A stretch of 64,000 bases of DNA from positions 620,001 to 684,000 of the forward strand of contig NZ_JAKRGA010000003.1 of assembly GCF_022347785.1 (NCBI RefSeq), given 5' to 3'. Origin of the DNA: Psychrobium sp. MM17-31. Lineage in GTDB: Bacteria; Pseudomonadota; Gammaproteobacteria; Enterobacterales; Psychrobiaceae. The notes under the pieces are model-generated. The model was not told the origin of the DNA. It worked only from the letters and a program-made list of their open reading frames with translations, and did no database searches. Positions 57,798 through 64,000 of this stretch are shown one piece after another. Position numbers and translations under genes: made by a program. Each line of letters opens with the position of its first letter. Position 1 is the stretch's first letter.

Positions 57798-57820
57798 ATT
57801 GATTCAGGGAGTGAATCAAT
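57798..57820 (+). repeat. Inverted repeat downstream of can
   Basis: ATTGATTCA-GGGAG-TGAATCAAT is a 9-bp perfect hairpin. There is no following T-run, so it may be a 3' stabiliser or an operator for the next gene. Confidence 0.45.
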
Positions 57821-57856
57821 GCAGTTCATTTTTCACCCCGCTTAATTGGAACATGG

Positions 57857-58228
57857 ATGATGCAACCCAAAACACAGCTAATATTTATTTACATCACTCT
57901 TATCTGCTTGTTATTAACTCTCGGCTTGTTGTATCAAAAACAGTTAATGTGGTTAGCGCTACCGTTCGTATTAATTGTCGCTCATTCAAGTATTGATATT
58001 TGGTTTCCTAAATCACCGTTTGCATCAAAATCACCAGAGATAATCGAAGCTCCTGACGATGAATCAACAATTTATTATTTAGATGATGAGGCTAATGAAA
58101 GCTCTGTGCAGAGTGCTGAAACCTCAATGCCAAGCTTTGAAAACTATCAACACATCAAAAAAGCCCTCGAATCTCATCAAGAAAAATTCCCTCACGCCGA
58201 GGTACATCCCAATAAATACCTCAAATAA
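57857..58228 (+). CDS. Small membrane protein with acidic tail, unknown
   Basis: A 123-aa protein starting at the ATG at 57857 (or the ATG just after). Two membrane helices (~7-27, 30-48) are followed by an acidic and then charged cytoplasmic tail (EIIEAPDDESTIYYLDDEAN...). No family is recognised. The tail ends with a His/Lys-rich stretch (HAEVHPNKYLK). Neither can nor the pair at 58402 is clearly in the same operon. Confidence 0.55.
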   Translation: MMQPKTQLIFIYITLICLLLTLGLLYQKQLMWLALPFVLIVAHSSIDIWFPKSPFASKSPEIIEAPDDESTIYYLDDEANESSVQSAETSMPSFENYQHIKKALESHQEKFPHAEVHPNKYLK

Positions 58229-58401
58229 GAAACATAATCCTTTTCTCGTTTTTATATTTCATTGCAATTTGCAAAATTAGCGTTAAAGAATTGCTCAAAA
58301 TCCTTTACTAGATTCAGTAACATATTGTATTAACTAGCTATTTAAACATTGGAACATAACCTGCTCTATCAAGTTACGCTTAAATGGATGGAGCAACGCT
58401 T

Positions 58402-59118
58402 ATGTTTACACCGATCATAGTTATCGATAGTTTACACGCCTCAAATGCCAATAAACTGATTGCCAATGTGATGGATATTGTGGGCCCATTAGGATGCCAA
58501 CGCCCAGTTATCGTGTGTCCTCAAACATGGCAAGCCAGTATCGAACTGTATTTAACACAAGCGAATATCAAGGCTCTAATACTGTCGACACCTTGTGAAA
58601 AGGGCACCACGCCAGCACTTACCAGTGCCGCTTTAATTAGTCTGTTGGAGCAAACAAACGCAACTTTGGCGGTGTTTCATCATCCACAATTCATCGACGA
58701 TTACGATGCTTTTGAGCACAGCCTATATCTAGCAGCACAAGTGGCTCAAGAAGATTATTTAGTAACCCTCGACAACACAGCCAACATCGCCTTAGCAGCA
58801 AATCAACTAGCTAACCCTTGGTTAATGAGCGCTAATACGCTACTAGACATCGTCGAAGATAATCACAGCCCGTTGCTAGAATATTGCCAACGTTCAATTG
58901 CCCTAAACGACATCAATGCGCAAAGCCAGGTCGTTAATCTCGATAATGGCTTTTATAGTCAGTGCCAAATTAGTGAAGTCGACAGCGCTATTTTCGCCTT
59001 TGCCAAGCAATCAATCGAAATTCCCCTTCAAAGTCGCTGGCCAACTGTTGTTCCTCAAGAACAGCTAAAAGCGCTTATGCCAGCTTACTGTGTCATCAAT
59101 AATCGCCACTTAAACTAG
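58402..59118 (+). CDS. Degenerate mannose-1-phosphate guanylyltransferase-like protein
   Basis: A 238-aa protein, about half the length of bacterial bifunctional GDP-mannose pyrophosphorylases (~470). It keeps the fold pattern: a beta strand then RPVIVCP (~34-40; PPIVVCN in enzymes), ALILSTPCEKGTTPALTSAALISL (~58-81; ILLEPVGRNTAPAIALAAL), and LAVFHHPQFIDDYDAFEHSL (~89-108; LVLPADHVIQDVEAF). But the nucleotide-binding LAGGxGTRLWPLSR loop is absent (residues 5-16 are IIVIDSLHASNA), GRNTAP is EKGTTP, and PADH is FHHP. It is therefore probably not catalytic. The ATG at 58402 has GGAG nine bases upstream; an ATG at 58384 is possible. It precedes a phosphomannomutase-like pseudo-enzyme by 11 bp in the same order as cpsB-cpsG. 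Confidence 0.6.
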   Translation: MFTPIIVIDSLHASNANKLIANVMDIVGPLGCQRPVIVCPQTWQASIELYLTQANIKALILSTPCEKGTTPALTSAALISLLEQTNATLAVFHHPQFIDDYDAFEHSLYLAAQVAQEDYLVTLDNTANIALAANQLANPWLMSANTLLDIVEDNHSPLLEYCQRSIALNDINAQSQVVNLDNGFYSQCQISEVDSAIFAFAKQSIEIPLQSRWPTVVPQEQLKALMPAYCVINNRHLN

Positions 59119-59129
59119 GAGAACTAGTC

Positions 59130-60503
59130 ATGGAAACACTTACTTGCTTTCACCAATCAGAAATCAATGGCGTAGTTAACAAAGATATTAACGAACAGAT
59201 TGCTTATCGTCTCGGCGCTGCCGTTGCAGAACAATTAGACGCACATTGCTTAGTGGTGGGCGGTGATAATCGCCTCTCTACGCCAACATTAAAACAGGCG
59301 CTAATTAAAGGTATTAAAAACACTGGTTGTAACGTGATTGATATTGGTTTGTGTGGCAGTGAAGAGTTATGTTTCGCAAATACAGTCAGCCAATCAGACG
59401 GCGGAGTTATGATAACCGGTGGCGCACAACCAAAAGTTATTAATGGTTTTAAAATTATCGATGCGCAAAATCAGTTACTTTGCAGCAAACAGCAGTTTGC
59501 GATGCTTCAACAAGCCATCATCAATCATGAACCGCCAATGCCTAAAAGTGCAGGAAAGTTGGTCTACCAAAATTATACTAAGGCCTACATTCAACAAATT
59601 CTGAGTTTTATTGACGTAAGTGCGATCAAGCCTTTACGGATTGTCGTTAATGCAGGTAATGGCATGGCTGGTAATGTGATTAACGCCTTGGAAACAGCGT
59701 TTCTAGGTCAGCAAGTGCCGATTCAACTCATCAAACTTAACAACCAACCAAACGGTGAGTTTCCCCACGGTGCGCCAGATCCTGAGTTATCCCATCACCA
59801 ACGTAAAACAAGTGATGCAGTAAAACGCCATAGCGCCGATTTAGGGTTAGCATGGGACGGTGACTTCAGTCGTTGTTTCTTCTTTGATGCGCAGGGTAAT
59901 GTTGTCGATCAATACTACATCATTGCCCTACTCGCTCAGCAATTTGCTCAAAAACAACCTTCGCAAAAAATTGTTCACGATTGTCGCCTGATTTGGAATA
60001 CCAAAGCCGCCGTTGCCAACGCAGGTGGCGAAGCCATCGAGTGTCAATGTGGCCAGCAACCAATGACCGACAGAATGCGCCAAGAAGATGCTGTCTACGC
60101 CGGTTCTATTGATGCGCATCATTACTTTAAAGACTTCTTCTATTGCGAAAGTGGCATGATCCCATGGTTAATGATTTGCGAGTTAATCTCACAGACTAAT
60201 CAGAGCTTAAGTGAATTAGTTAATCAACAAATGCTAGCATTTCCAACCTCAGGAGAAATCGACAGCAAGATTAAAAATAGCGCCGCTGTATTGGATGATA
60301 TCGAGCATCAACTAGCCAGCAGCGCCACAGAAATTAAACACACCGACGGTCTATCAATGAGCTTCAATAACTGGCGTTTCAATCTATTTCAGTCTTCGCC
60401 AAACGGACCATTAAAACTTAATGTCGAAAGCCGTGGCGACGTTGCATTAATGCAGCAACAAACCAACTATCTGCTGGGGTTATTACAGGCTAGCCATGCC
60501 TAG
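59130..60503 (+). CDS. Degenerate phosphomannomutase/phosphoglucomutase-like protein
   Basis: A 457-aa protein of normal family length and clear family fold (VVGGDNRLSTPTLKQALIKGI, DIGLCGSEELCFA, VVNAGNGMAGNVI, DLGLAWDGDFSRCFFFD). All four hallmark loops are altered. The phosphoserine loop TASHNP is TGGAQP (96-101; the Ser position is Gly98). The Mg loop DGDGDR is DGDFSR (243-248). The sugar loop GEMSGH is GSIDAH (325-330). The phosphate loop RPSNTEP is replaced by FQSSPNG (420-426). It therefore cannot use the standard mechanism. The likely role is regulatory or structural, perhaps with the degenerate partner upstream (11-bp gap). Ends before a terminator. Confidence 0.8.
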   Translation: METLTCFHQSEINGVVNKDINEQIAYRLGAAVAEQLDAHCLVVGGDNRLSTPTLKQALIKGIKNTGCNVIDIGLCGSEELCFANTVSQSDGGVMITGGAQPKVINGFKIIDAQNQLLCSKQQFAMLQQAIINHEPPMPKSAGKLVYQNYTKAYIQQILSFIDVSAIKPLRIVVNAGNGMAGNVINALETAFLGQQVPIQLIKLNNQPNGEFPHGAPDPELSHHQRKTSDAVKRHSADLGLAWDGDFSRCFFFDAQGNVVDQYYIIALLAQQFAQKQPSQKIVHDCRLIWNTKAAVANAGGEAIECQCGQQPMTDRMRQEDAVYAGSIDAHHYFKDFFYCESGMIPWLMICELISQTNQSLSELVNQQMLAFPTSGEIDSKIKNSAAVLDDIEHQLASSATEIKHTDGLSMSFNNWRFNLFQSSPNGPLKLNVESRGDVALMQQQTNYLLGLLQASHA

Positions 60504-60530
60504 CCAATAAATCTAATGAGTAAGTCGCCC

Positions 60531-60555
60531 TACACCACCATATCGGTGGTGTAGG
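60531..60555 (+). terminator. Terminator after pseudo-mutase gene
   Basis: A 10-bp perfect stem (CTACACCACC/GGTGGTGTAG) with an ATATC loop, then TTTT. Confidence 0.9.
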
Positions 60556-60616
60556 TTTTATTTATGTAGAAAGTATGATTAGATGGAGATTGATACGAAG
60601 CAAGGAGCTGAAAATA

Positions 60617-61840
60617 ATGAGAAAAATACTAATTGGATTACTCTGTTCTGGCCTGTTTATCTGCGCTAACTCATTTGCCTATTCAGCACCTCCCAAAGAA
60701 CTAAAACTCTATCTCGATGCCGATTTTTCAACGCTAAAGCAAGCAGCCCATGCCATTGAGTTAGGTATCAATACAGCGCTAAGTGAAGAGAGCCATCAAT
60801 TACAAGGCTACAGGCTCTCTGTTGTGCGAAAAAACCATCGCGGCAACTCAAGGCGCAGTGCGAAACATCTTAAAGCATTCTTAAAAGATCCAAGCGCTAT
60901 CGCGGTTTTTGGTGGCTTACATTCTCCACCATTACTGGCCAACAAATCCTTTATTAACAAAAATCGTATCTTAACGCTTGTACCTTGGGCTGCTGCGGGC
61001 CCGATTACTCGCAGTAATAGTGACGAGAACTGGATATTTAGACTGTCAATCGATGACAGTAATGCTGGAAAATTCATTGTTAGCCGAGCATTAAACCAAG
61101 GTTTTAAACGTCCTTACCTATTGTTGGAAAACACTGGTTGGGGAGAGTCAAACCTCAATAAGATGTCGCAAGCCATCACTGATAAAGGTGTCAAACACAT
61201 TGGCGTACAGCGCTTTAATTGGGGAATTAATGACAGCCAAGCACGACTTATTTTACACGACGTTATTAATGCCAAACCCGACGTTATCTTGTTTGTCGGC
61301 AACGCGCCAGAAGGTATTATTTTCGCAAAACAACTGGCCGCACTAAACAGCGGCATTGCAATGCGCAGCCATTGGGGGATTACTGGCGGTGATTTTGCTA
61401 ATCAAGTCACCATGGCAGAAAGAAGCGCGATAGATTTACAGTTTATCCAAACCAATTTCTCGTTTTTATCGAAAAACAATACAGCGTTTAGCAAACAGGT
61501 ATTTAACCGCTTAACCTCGCTTTCAAACATTAAATCACCTGAAGAATTGCCAGCCGCTACGGGATTTATTCACGCATATGATTTAACTAAACTATTGATT
61601 AGTGCAATCAAAAGCGTGCCACTCAGCGGTGATAAAAACAAAGATATGCTTGCCATTCACCAAGCGCTAGAAAACCTAACTACACCACAGCAAGGATTAA
61701 TAAAATCCTACAATAACCCCTTTTCTAGCTATTCAGCCGATAGTCCAAATGCGCACGAGGCGCTCTCTATCGACGATTATCGTATGGGCTTCTATGATAA
61801 CAACAACGCTGTTCGCCTAATCAATCTATCTAATGAGTAG
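60617..61840 (+). CDS. Periplasmic substrate-binding protein (LivJ-like)
   Basis: A 407-aa exported protein with a signal peptide (MRKILIGLLCSGLFICANSFA) and a type 1 periplasmic-binding fold similar to branched-chain amino-acid/amide binding proteins (PSAIAVFGGLHSPPLLANKSFIN, GWGESNLNKMSQAI, AKPDVILFVGNAPEGIIFAKQL). The ATG at 60617 has AGGAG nine bases upstream, so the 14 in-frame residues before it are excluded. No ABC permease or ATPase genes adjoin. Instead a histidine kinase gene follows after 8 bp, so it is likely a ligand sensor for that kinase. Confidence 0.8.
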   Translation: MRKILIGLLCSGLFICANSFAYSAPPKELKLYLDADFSTLKQAAHAIELGINTALSEESHQLQGYRLSVVRKNHRGNSRRSAKHLKAFLKDPSAIAVFGGLHSPPLLANKSFINKNRILTLVPWAAAGPITRSNSDENWIFRLSIDDSNAGKFIVSRALNQGFKRPYLLLENTGWGESNLNKMSQAITDKGVKHIGVQRFNWGINDSQARLILHDVINAKPDVILFVGNAPEGIIFAKQLAALNSGIAMRSHWGITGGDFANQVTMAERSAIDLQFIQTNFSFLSKNNTAFSKQVFNRLTSLSNIKSPEELPAATGFIHAYDLTKLLISAIKSVPLSGDKNKDMLAIHQALENLTTPQQGLIKSYNNPFSSYSADSPNAHEALSIDDYRMGFYDNNNAVRLINLSNE

Positions 61841-61848
61841 TCAGTTGC

Positions 61849-63648
61849 ATGAATAAAGTCTCAATTTCGTTTGCTACCGCTAAATTTATTTTTGTCAGCT
61901 ATTTAGCTCTAGCGCTACTCACCACCTTTGTGGTGGTGAGCCAAGCTGCTAAATCAGTGAACGAACAACAACAAGCGTTCGTAAAATTAGAGACGGATAC
62001 CTTAAGTAAAAGCTTGCGTCAGTTTCTAACCAACCGACAATTGATTTTACAGGAACAAAGCCAGCACCCGCTCATTGTGCAGTCGATGATGCAATCAACG
62101 GTTAATCGCCTAAAAATCGCCGAATACTTTCAGCACCTGCGTTTTTTAGGTGATAAATACCAACTCAGCTTACTCGATTTTGAAGGGCAGTTTATTTACG
62201 CCACTAATGATCTCGAAGGCTTTTATCATCACGACGCGCCGTGGCTTCCGCCACTATTAGCAGGTGACATTCCCTCGCACATTAGCGTGAAAAAAATCGG
62301 AGAAAACTACTATTGGGTACTCGCCCAAGCCATCGATTATCAAGGTGAAATCGAAGGTGTTATAACTGCAACTATTGCCTTTGAAGACATTCTTAAAAAA
62401 ATTGGCGCGCCAGCAGGCTTAACTATTAAGTTTATGCAAAGCAGCACTCTTATAGCTCAGTTGGGTGACATTAACCAAGGCATTACACGCGATATCGATT
62501 GGCCGATTGCAGGCTTATCACTACAATTTATCTATGATGACACCCTAATCAATCAGGCAATGAGTGAGCTAATTATTCAGCTCACCGTGCTAATTATTAT
62601 CGCCATCTTGATTATATCCTGCCTCGCTTATTACTTCGGCCGCCGCTATTTAGTCGATCCCGTTGAAAAACTCGCGCTAGCAACCACCTCACTCGAAGAC
62701 GGCAAAGAGCTATCTGAACTCACCAGTGATATAAAAATCAAAGAGCTATCGCGGCTCACCAAAAGCTTTAACCGCATGAGCCGCACCATTTATCAGCGCG
62801 AGCAAGCACTGCTCACCAGCCAAAAAGAGCTATTACAAAGTCATAAAGATCTCAAAGAAAGTGAATCACAACGTATTCAGAATGAGAAAATGGCAAGTCT
62901 AGGGATATTAGTGGCTGGTGTCGCCCACGAAATCAATAACCCCATCGGTTTTGTTAAAAGTAATATCGATACGCTACAAGGCTATTGGAGTGATATTTTA
63001 GCGCTGATCGACGAGCTAAAATCGACAATGACTGACGAAACGCTGCAGCAACAATTCGATGAACTCTTTGAGCGTCACGATGCTCAATTTATTATTGACG
63101 ATATTAATCCGCTAATCGACAGTACCAACGACGGTATCGCCCGCGTCACCGAAATAGTTAAAGGTCTAAAAACTTTTGCCCGCAATGATTCGCCAGAAAT
63201 GGTGCTTAGCGATATTAACGAAGGACTCAGAGCCACCTTGGTCATGGCGCAAAATGAACTCAAATATCATTGTGAAATAAAGACTCAATTAGGTGATGTG
63301 CCACCTACATTGATGTTCCCTAGCAAAATCAACCAAGTATTGATGAACTTGTTACACAATGCAGGACAAGCGATTAAAGACAAAGGCATCATTACTATCG
63401 TTAGTGATGTTAAAGATAACGAAATATTTGTACAAATTACCGATACTGGCGAAGGTATCGCGCCAGACAAGCTTAGCGAGATCTTTAATCCGTTTTACAC
63501 CTCCAAACCCGCAGGTCAAGGTACAGGGCTTGGTTTAGCGATAAGCCACAGCATCATGGAACAACACGGGGGCCGTATCGAAGTTGAATCAACAGTCGGC
63601 GAAGGCAGCAGCTTTACTATTTATCTGCCTATCAGCGAACAAAGTTAA
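61849..63648 (+). CDS. Membrane sensor histidine kinase, paired with binding protein
   Basis: A 599-aa kinase: membrane helix (~13-33), periplasmic cache-like sensor region (~35-238), second helix (~240-262), HAMP (~263-320), coiled coil, then HisKA with VAGVAHEINNPIGFVKSN and HATPase with FNPFYTSKPAGQGTGLGLAISHSIMEQHGG. The binding-protein gene lies 8 bp upstream, suggesting ligand-loaded binding protein signals to this kinase. No response regulator gene is adjacent in the window. The stop overlaps the convergent glycosyltransferase gene. Confidence 0.9.
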   Translation: MNKVSISFATAKFIFVSYLALALLTTFVVVSQAAKSVNEQQQAFVKLETDTLSKSLRQFLTNRQLILQEQSQHPLIVQSMMQSTVNRLKIAEYFQHLRFLGDKYQLSLLDFEGQFIYATNDLEGFYHHDAPWLPPLLAGDIPSHISVKKIGENYYWVLAQAIDYQGEIEGVITATIAFEDILKKIGAPAGLTIKFMQSSTLIAQLGDINQGITRDIDWPIAGLSLQFIYDDTLINQAMSELIIQLTVLIIIAILIISCLAYYFGRRYLVDPVEKLALATTSLEDGKELSELTSDIKIKELSRLTKSFNRMSRTIYQREQALLTSQKELLQSHKDLKESESQRIQNEKMASLGILVAGVAHEINNPIGFVKSNIDTLQGYWSDILALIDELKSTMTDETLQQQFDELFERHDAQFIIDDINPLIDSTNDGIARVTEIVKGLKTFARNDSPEMVLSDINEGLRATLVMAQNELKYHCEIKTQLGDVPPTLMFPSKINQVLMNLLHNAGQAIKDKGIITIVSDVKDNEIFVQITDTGEGIAPDKLSEIFNPFYTSKPAGQGTGLGLAISHSIMEQHGGRIEVESTVGEGSSFTIYLPISEQS

Positions 63649-64000
63649 CTTATCTGCTTGGCGCCAAAATACTGCATCGCCACCTGCTCTAGTTTGGCGT
63701 AAAGCTTTGCGGGCAGTAGCTTAACCAAAGCGCCAGCAGTAGTGATCATTGTGCGCTTTGGCTCTTGCGACAAGATCCTAACATCACATATTAGCGCCTT
63801 AACGACCAGTTTAAGTCCAAGCAGTTTATTATCACTTTGAATAGCACGACGCGCCATATAGCGCAGCTGATAGGCTTTGGCCAAGCGATAATAACCGTTA
63901 AACAGCATAGGCGCAGCGGCTTTATTAAGCGCCATAGCCGTCTTCCAGGCACTAAATTGAGCCTCGATATTGGCGGATAAACCACCTTGATTAACTCGAT
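63645..64000 (-). CDS. Glycosyltransferase-like protein (C-terminal part)
   Basis: The frame is open to the window edge; 117 codons are visible, continuing upstream. The visible part starts RVNQGGLSANIEAQ and contains an amphipathic helical tail, which resembles the end of family 2 glycosyltransferases. The ATG at 63935 inside this frame is not taken as the start, because the frame continues without a stop. The identity is tentative. It overlaps the end of the kinase gene by 4 bp. Proximity to the pseudo-GDP-mannose pair hints at a polysaccharide context. Confidence 0.45.
   Translation of the reverse strand, partial: RVNQGGLSANIEAQFSAWKTAMALNKAAAPMLFNGYYRLAKAYQLRYMARRAIQSDNKLLGLKLVVKALICDVRILSQEPKRTMITTAGALVKLLPAKLYAKLEQVAMQYFGAKQIS

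Follow-up and report, generated by a model that had tools for sequence, protein, structure and literature searches.

We analyzed a 64,000-nucleotide stretch of the genome of Psychrobium sp. MM17-31 (contig NZ_JAKRGA010000003.1, positions 620,001 to 684,000; hereafter the window). Two adjacent genes near its end, arranged like the cpsB (manC) and cpsG genes for GDP-mannose synthesis, encode a pair of proteins, pseudo-ManC and pseudo-CpsG. Judging from their sequences, both proteins have lost their catalytic residues, and the altered loops and the adjacent pair are kept in three species. The pair forms the start of an exopolysaccharide (EPS) island. Tentatively, we favor the explanation that the two proteins work together without catalysis, as a regulatory or adaptor complex that serves the polysaccharide of this island and binds active ManC/CpsG or the first glycosyltransferases. 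The two genes are as follows.

58402..59118, plus strand: pseudo-ManC, a CpsB-like remnant of 238 amino acids (open reading frame, profile score, alignment, and AlphaFold2 model).
59130..60503, plus strand: pseudo-CpsG, a phosphohexomutase fold of 457 amino acids with four altered active-site loops (open reading frame, Pfam, alignment, and AlphaFold2 model).

Both reading frames are open and separated by 11 nt, which confirms the intact adjacent pair in cpsB–cpsG order given in a preliminary description of this DNA. Pseudo-CpsG matches Pfam PGM_PMM I–III and has a four-domain phosphohexomutase fold over its whole length. The top Foldseek match of its AlphaFold2 model (pLDDT 90.7) in the PDB is Xanthomonas citri 5bmn (TM 0.90, rmsd 2.5), and the best of its solved relatives, at E ~1e-119, is named X. 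citri phosphoglucomutase. The models of both proteins were built on alignments of sequences gathered in this analysis. Against the CpsG profile (NCBIfam NF011943), pseudo-CpsG scored 468.6 bits, which is below the cut-off of 801. While it shares the full-length fold with CpsG/XanA/AlgC-type phosphohexomutases, its phosphoserine, metal, sugar, and phosphate loops are all altered. In the window, these loops read ITGGAQP for TASHNP, DGDFSR for DGDFDR, GSIDAHH for GEMSAHH, and FQSSPNG for RxSNTEP, and the earlier claim of a full-length phosphomannomutase-like protein with four changed loops is thus borne out.

The loops were read in 53 different CpsG-like proteins, taken as open frames of at least 400 amino acids that match pseudo-CpsG at E ≤ 1e-80; these limits left out GlmM (L004) and the fragments at L006, L007, and L063. 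The phosphoserine loop is TGG(A/S)QP, with the catalytic Ser lost, in all three orthologues at this locus and TASHNP in all 50 other CpsGs. The same complete separation (3 of 3 against 50 of 50) holds for the metal loop (DGDFSR against DGDFDR with its three Asp), the sugar loop (GSID/GATD against GEMS), and the phosphate loop (FQSSPN/CQSSPH against RxSNTE). Pseudo-CpsG still has the Arg of the metal loop and the His of the sugar loop.

The changes are not confined to the loops. Among the 158 columns that hold one residue in at least 96% of the 50 CpsGs, 107 are kept in all three pseudo-CpsGs. In 27 of the 51 changed columns, the three species share one new residue, and the other 24 are variable or changed in part of the three. 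The kept columns, the remaining Arg and His, and the shared replacements (such as a remodeled active site could produce) would suit a working enzyme that carries out a new reaction on sugars or their phosphates, with pseudo-ManC as the partner that stabilizes it. We consider such an enzyme improbable, because only 15 of the 51 changed columns fall inside the four loops and because the phosphoserine, one Asp of the metal loop, both Glu and Ser of the sugar loop, and the Arg of the phosphate loop are lost. Since the phosphohexomutase loops hold the phosphorylated sugar (loop roles as outlined in PMC7761743), the grip on such a substrate would be gone. The loss of the phosphate-binding loop also weakens the idea, raised in the preliminary description, of a sugar-phosphate sensor.

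The likeness of pseudo-ManC to ManC is weak and confined to two stretches, about residues 17–126 and 139–218. In a profile search, pseudo-ManC scored 50 bits against TIGR01479 (cut-off 373), with residues 15–124 as the best stretch. Its AlphaFold2 model has a mean pLDDT of 84.9 and a pTM of 0.82, and the top Foldseek match in the PDB is H. pylori 2qh5 (TM 0.69 on the query, rmsd 5.6). In an alignment of 24 ManCs with pseudo-ManC and its two orthologues, the nucleotide loop GGxGxRLWPxSRxxxPKQF is present in all 24 ManCs (with Met for Leu in one) and missing in all three pseudo-ManCs, in agreement with the earlier account of a half-length ManC-like protein without this loop. Pseudo-ManC is also about 37 residues shorter over the sugar-pocket region with the GYGYI/EKP/NSGMF motifs, the LAADH of most ManCs is replaced by FHHPQ in the window and FHHWQ in both orthologues, and the Asp of W-x-D-[VI]-G is lost. 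The protein ends at 238 amino acids, without the C-terminal mannose-6-phosphate isomerase domain. What it shares with the mannose-1-phosphate guanylyltransferases(/isomerases) ManC/CpsB is the similarity in the two stretches and the position before cpsG.

Nine genomes, including that of MM17-31 (G000), made up the genus sample, and the family is represented by this genus alone. Pseudo-ManC is present in three of the nine, namely G000 and two relatives (G001 and G007) at 42% and 39% identity, and pseudo-CpsG has orthologues in the same three genomes, at 78 and 77% identity in the relatives. In G001 and G007, whose contigs are recorded as Gammaproteobacteria metagenome-assembled genomes, the paired genes are adjacent with 1 nt between them. 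The gene order is also kept there: carbonic anhydrase, small membrane protein, the pair, periplasmic binding protein, histidine kinase, and a convergent glycosyltransferase. G008 was left unscored for the pair, since its contig stops just after the carbonic anhydrase gene. A search for orthologous adjacent pairs with the same altered motifs thus found them in two further members of the genus, and intact motifs at this locus were looked for in G001 and G007 and seen in neither. The genome of MM17-31 itself retains two intact manC–cpsG pairs, near C2:811–814 kb and C2:598–601 kb.

These data bear on whether the pair is a duplicated manC–cpsG module in decay or an assembly error, which we regard as highly improbable. 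The ManC partner is truncated and fast-evolving (38–60% identity among the three species), as expected of decay. However, the frames are intact, and the pseudo-CpsGs are 76–88% identical to one another, compared with 73–78% for the genuine CpsG (the C2:812 kb copy in G000) in the same three genomes, so that their conservation equals that of the true enzyme. Amino acid identity was used here rather than dN/dS because synonymous sites were saturated in most pairs. A promoter element that is conserved and a hairpin after the genes, both described below, also speak against decay. Sequencing error and decay are already largely refuted because three separate assemblies keep the pair with the same four loops altered alike, and on these grounds the earlier conclusion that catalysis was lost jointly, without decay, holds.

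In the phylogenetic tree, the three pseudo-CpsGs form one clade (100/100) with a stem of 3.21 changes per column and tips of 0.08–0.16. The long stem and short tips suggest that pseudo-CpsG underwent a burst of change and then came under constraint. With this very long stem, odd composition, and a bootstrap that had not settled, the tree leaves the origin of pseudo-CpsG unplaced.

A scan of the order (394 genomes, 129 of which matched at 1e-60) gave no other pseudo-CpsG match above 48% identity; the other matches listed, partial ones included, are 36–48% identical to pseudo-CpsG. In other families of the order, some CpsG matches cover only part of the protein (about residues 140–455). These were considered as possible further pseudo-mutases and rejected, since the ones fetched have intact loops and are normal CpsGs that contain an insertion. 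They adjoin a full-length ManC wherever a ManC was seen. A pattern for the altered metal loop, which allows the third Asp to be replaced by Ser, Thr, Cys, or Trp or by Arg in some of its codons and whose protein context fits 49 of 50 intact CpsGs, matched only two contigs in 84,980 species genomes, those of G001 and G007; the genome record of the window itself may lie outside this collection. The search of genome contigs with pseudo-ManC found nothing, a weak negative as the two orthologues in the same collection were also missed, and the search of viral contigs likewise found nothing. Among plasmids, pseudo-ManC matched four Cupriavidus records (NZ_CP043441.1 1483135-1483488 and three other replicons) at 28–32% identity, with no match extending beyond the first half of the protein. 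No gene is listed under these matches in a gene table that is incomplete, and they may be ManC relatives or remnants.

The region around the pair contains three candidate control features.

58262..58274, plus strand: LuxO/SypG-type upstream activating sequence TTGCAATTTGCAA, a perfect match to the published box TTGCAWWWTGCAA.
58350..58365, plus strand: sigma-54-like −24/−12 element TGGAACATAACCTGCT, found by pattern search.
60529..60555, plus strand: intrinsic-terminator-like hairpin after the pair, with an 11-bp stem and a T-rich tail.

The sequence TTGCAWWWTGCAA is given as the 13-bp LuxO box (PMC10162802), and the same 13 letters are given at qrr2 and qrr4 of V. cholerae (PMC10328515). The preliminary description had proposed a shared promoter and a terminator. 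The terminator-like hairpin stands. No sigma-70-like site was found before the pair, and the sole such site in 57800–61000 lies downstream; the sigma-54-like element at 58350–58365 is the better candidate and is likely the promoter of the pair. Eight terminator-like hairpins were found in the region against 3.0 expected. In G001 and G007, hairpins of other sequence and with no clean T run lie at the same place after the pair.

Across the three species, the −24 element is one of the two most conserved blocks in an otherwise diverged intergenic region, and the box lies 75 nt upstream of the −24/−12 element at the pair in all three. The 4.17 Mb genome has exactly two copies of the composite TTGCANNNYGCAA-N60-90-TGGN8YTGC, against none for the reversed-pattern control: one before the pair and one before the Wza-like gene of the island 19 kb away. 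In 200 shuffles of 84 kb (mononucleotide, 500-base blocks), the mean was 0.005 composites against the two observed. The box of the Wza-like gene, TTGCAAAACGCAA, is one letter off the LuxO consensus. Box and element are spaced 74–75 nt apart at the pair in all three species and at the Wza-like gene in G000 and G007. Boxes without a clear −24/−12 element precede a galU-like gene in G000 and G007. A LuxO-type box also lies between the LuxO-like regulator and flippase genes in all four genomes for which this stretch was read (L081:3063-3075, L059:2191, L060:673, and L111:2726), again with no clear −24/−12 element beside it.

LuxO boxes before qrr genes represent the established use of this motif (PMC10328515), and the leaders in G001 and G007 are long, as would fit a box and sigma-54 element that serve a Qrr-like small RNA with the pair merely as a neighbor. 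We judge this very unlikely. The distance from the element to the start codon is just 36 nt in the window, the other composite in the genome precedes an export gene, and an Rfam search of about 3 kb surrounding the element, run for each of the three species, gave no match at E ≤ 0.1. Five weak Rfam matches in L081 were all under the gathering score.

The response regulator in the island (L081:3125-4591) has LuxO (NF041946) as its best NCBIfam match, at 484.3 bits against a cut-off of 800, and is classed by this score as LuxO-like and not as LuxO. Its orthologue in G001 has receiver, sigma-54, and HTH_8 domains. SypG and ScvE are described as sigma-54-dependent regulators of polysaccharide loci, and, of the activators in V. 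fischeri, SypG is said to resemble LuxO most closely (PMC10162802, PMC8941931). As far as these accounts describe the syp and scv loci of Vibrionaceae, the locus reported here resembles them in that polysaccharide genes are accompanied by a LuxO-like regulator, LuxO-type boxes, and sigma-54-like promoters. It differs in that it contains the pseudo-enzyme pair and its regulator falls under the LuxO cut-off.

Three further genes follow the pair in the window.

60575..61840, plus strand: periplasmic binding protein Peripla_BP_6, probably the sensor partner of the kinase (family match).
61849..63648, plus strand: sensor histidine kinase (family match).
63645..63998, minus strand: family-2 glycosyltransferase that runs past the window end and opens the EPS part (Pfam on the relative at L059:3522-4598).

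The glycosyltransferase gene is complete at L081:646-1656. The island genes were read from L081 and L113, mostly past the window, with family searches for the flippase and the glycosyltransferase run on their relatives in G001. In G000, the island begins with the pair, the binding protein and kinase, the glycosyltransferase, a Wzx-type flippase, and the sigma-54 response regulator. A GalU-like gene (from its translation), a further sugar-transferase-like gene, a WecG-family transferase, and an initiating sugar transferase come next, followed by unrelated small genes, Wza-like and chain-length-like proteins, a ligase/polymerase, a pyruvyl transferase, and a glycosyltransferase. The island ends with a kinase/H-NOX/HD-GYP regulator set, after which comes an mmsB-like gene. 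This continuity is seen in G000 only, as in G001 and G007 the island is interrupted by contig ends. In four of the five sister species without the pair (G002, G003, G004, and G006), mmsB stands directly after the carbonic anhydrase gene (can) or one to two genes later; in the fifth (G005), carbonic anhydrase is followed by other genes, and the stretch read showed no mmsB. About 28 kb, including the pair, is therefore extra in this clade. The Wza-like gene of the island was matched (at 1e-10) in G000, G007, and G008 and in none of G002–G006; it was not found in G001, which is an assembly of 80% completeness.

The position of the pair directly before the binding-protein and kinase genes, and the control element common to it and the export gene, would also be consistent with a cytosolic signaling modulator that binds the neighboring histidine kinase or the LuxO-like regulator and exerts feedback on sigma-54 transcription rather than on metabolism. 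In three sister species, relatives of the binding protein (49–55% identity) precede a kinase and lie close to a LuxO-like regulator, and kinases 41–51% identical to the product of 61849–63648 are found at EPS-type loci of three sister species. No pair was found with these homologous binding-protein/kinase/regulator sets, and we therefore consider the signaling role unlikely.

We return to the preferred explanation of a non-catalytic complex that serves the polysaccharide. A tie to polysaccharide synthesis, already proposed in the preliminary description, is strengthened by the position of the pair in the EPS island and by the sigma-54/LuxO-type element that it has in common with the export gene. 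A pair derived from a manC–cpsG module would be carried by the island and switched on by the LuxO-like regulator together with polysaccharide export. The two proteins, encoded 1–11 nt apart, would be co-translated and would bind each other. The complex, with no catalysis of its own, would then bind active ManC/CpsG, or the first glycosyltransferases, and adjust or direct sugar-nucleotide supply while the polysaccharide is made, as GMPPA acts on GMPPB.

Eukaryotes are known to have inactive paralogues that control sugar-nucleotide enzymes. GMPPA is described as an inactive regulator of GMPPB in animals that still binds GDP-mannose (PMC11228364). Like pseudo-ManC, it is itself inactive and is the paralogue of an active enzyme that makes GDP-mannose in the same cell; however, the pocket of pseudo-ManC is mostly gone, and its mutase partner is a pseudo-enzyme as well. 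PGM5/aciculin, the inactive phosphoglucomutase of vertebrates, is likewise a full-length, conserved, inactive relative of phosphohexomutases (as presented in PMC7761743), but its substrate binding is retained and its metal loop is largely conserved, whereas pseudo-CpsG has four altered loops and stands beside pseudo-ManC.

Several observations weigh against the explanation that we prefer. The −24/−12 pattern alone is not enriched, with three in the window against 2.33 expected by chance. The composite also occurs at other loci of sister species without the pair (two in G004, one in G005, and two in G006). All five sites are at EPS-type clusters, identified from translations, with a family search for the three regulators of L124 only; the composite thus marks a polysaccharide regulon and not the pair alone. 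The distance from the promoter to the start codon is 171 nt in G001 and 124 nt in G007, compared with 36 nt in the window, and in G008 the box of the Wza-like gene is a TTTCA variant located 95 nt from the element. GDP-mannose feedback through pseudo-ManC is unlikely because nearly the whole nucleotide and sugar pocket is lost and the protein diverges fast, and binding would rest on pseudo-CpsG or on protein contacts. Finally, the co-occurrence of pair and island counts as a single event, since the three species share one syntenic locus.

A broader proposal is that a whole two-step pathway, phosphomannomutase and GDP-mannose pyrophosphorylase, was duplicated, stripped of catalysis in both steps, and kept as a two-protein regulatory or adaptor complex that is dedicated to a single polysaccharide and under the LuxO-type sigma-54 control of its export. 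We regard such a 'pseudo-pathway' as possible but somewhat doubtful. If true, it would be comparable to GMPPA yet would span two enzymes. A conserved pair with both members inactivated and with the LuxO-type element of a polysaccharide export gene would offer a tractable bacterial system for the control or channeling of precursor supply by polysaccharide makers. No case of a pseudo- or inactive phosphomannomutase or phosphoglucomutase in bacteria was found in searches of open-access papers. A locus with the manC–cpsG order can also be mistaken for a GDP-mannose synthesis module.

Other features of the region were also observed. Between carbonic anhydrase and the pair, the window encodes a small membrane-type protein with no Pfam match (57857–58228). 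Its relatives stand in the same place in four other members of the genus, with 54–69% identity among the three pair-bearing species and 22–30% in G004 and G006. A binding protein, sensor kinase, and LuxO-like regulator are found together in three sister species (L124:1567-6148, L125:9079-13698, and L126:15402-19902), where these three-gene sets adjoin EPS-type clusters with the same box and sigma-54-like element. Together, they are perhaps a genus-wide three-part system of polysaccharide control. The translation of the contig start of G007:C26 (L110:1-50) contains RRQRQMCIRDR, which we take to be sequencing-adapter read-through and probably an assembly artefact at that position. The histidine kinase, H-NOX gene, and receiver/HD-GYP protein that close the EPS island are located at L113:1666-4522 (G000:C3:703665-706521) and also at L110:9894-12765; in V. 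fischeri, an input of HnoX/HahK into the syp regulators is described (PMC12369376).

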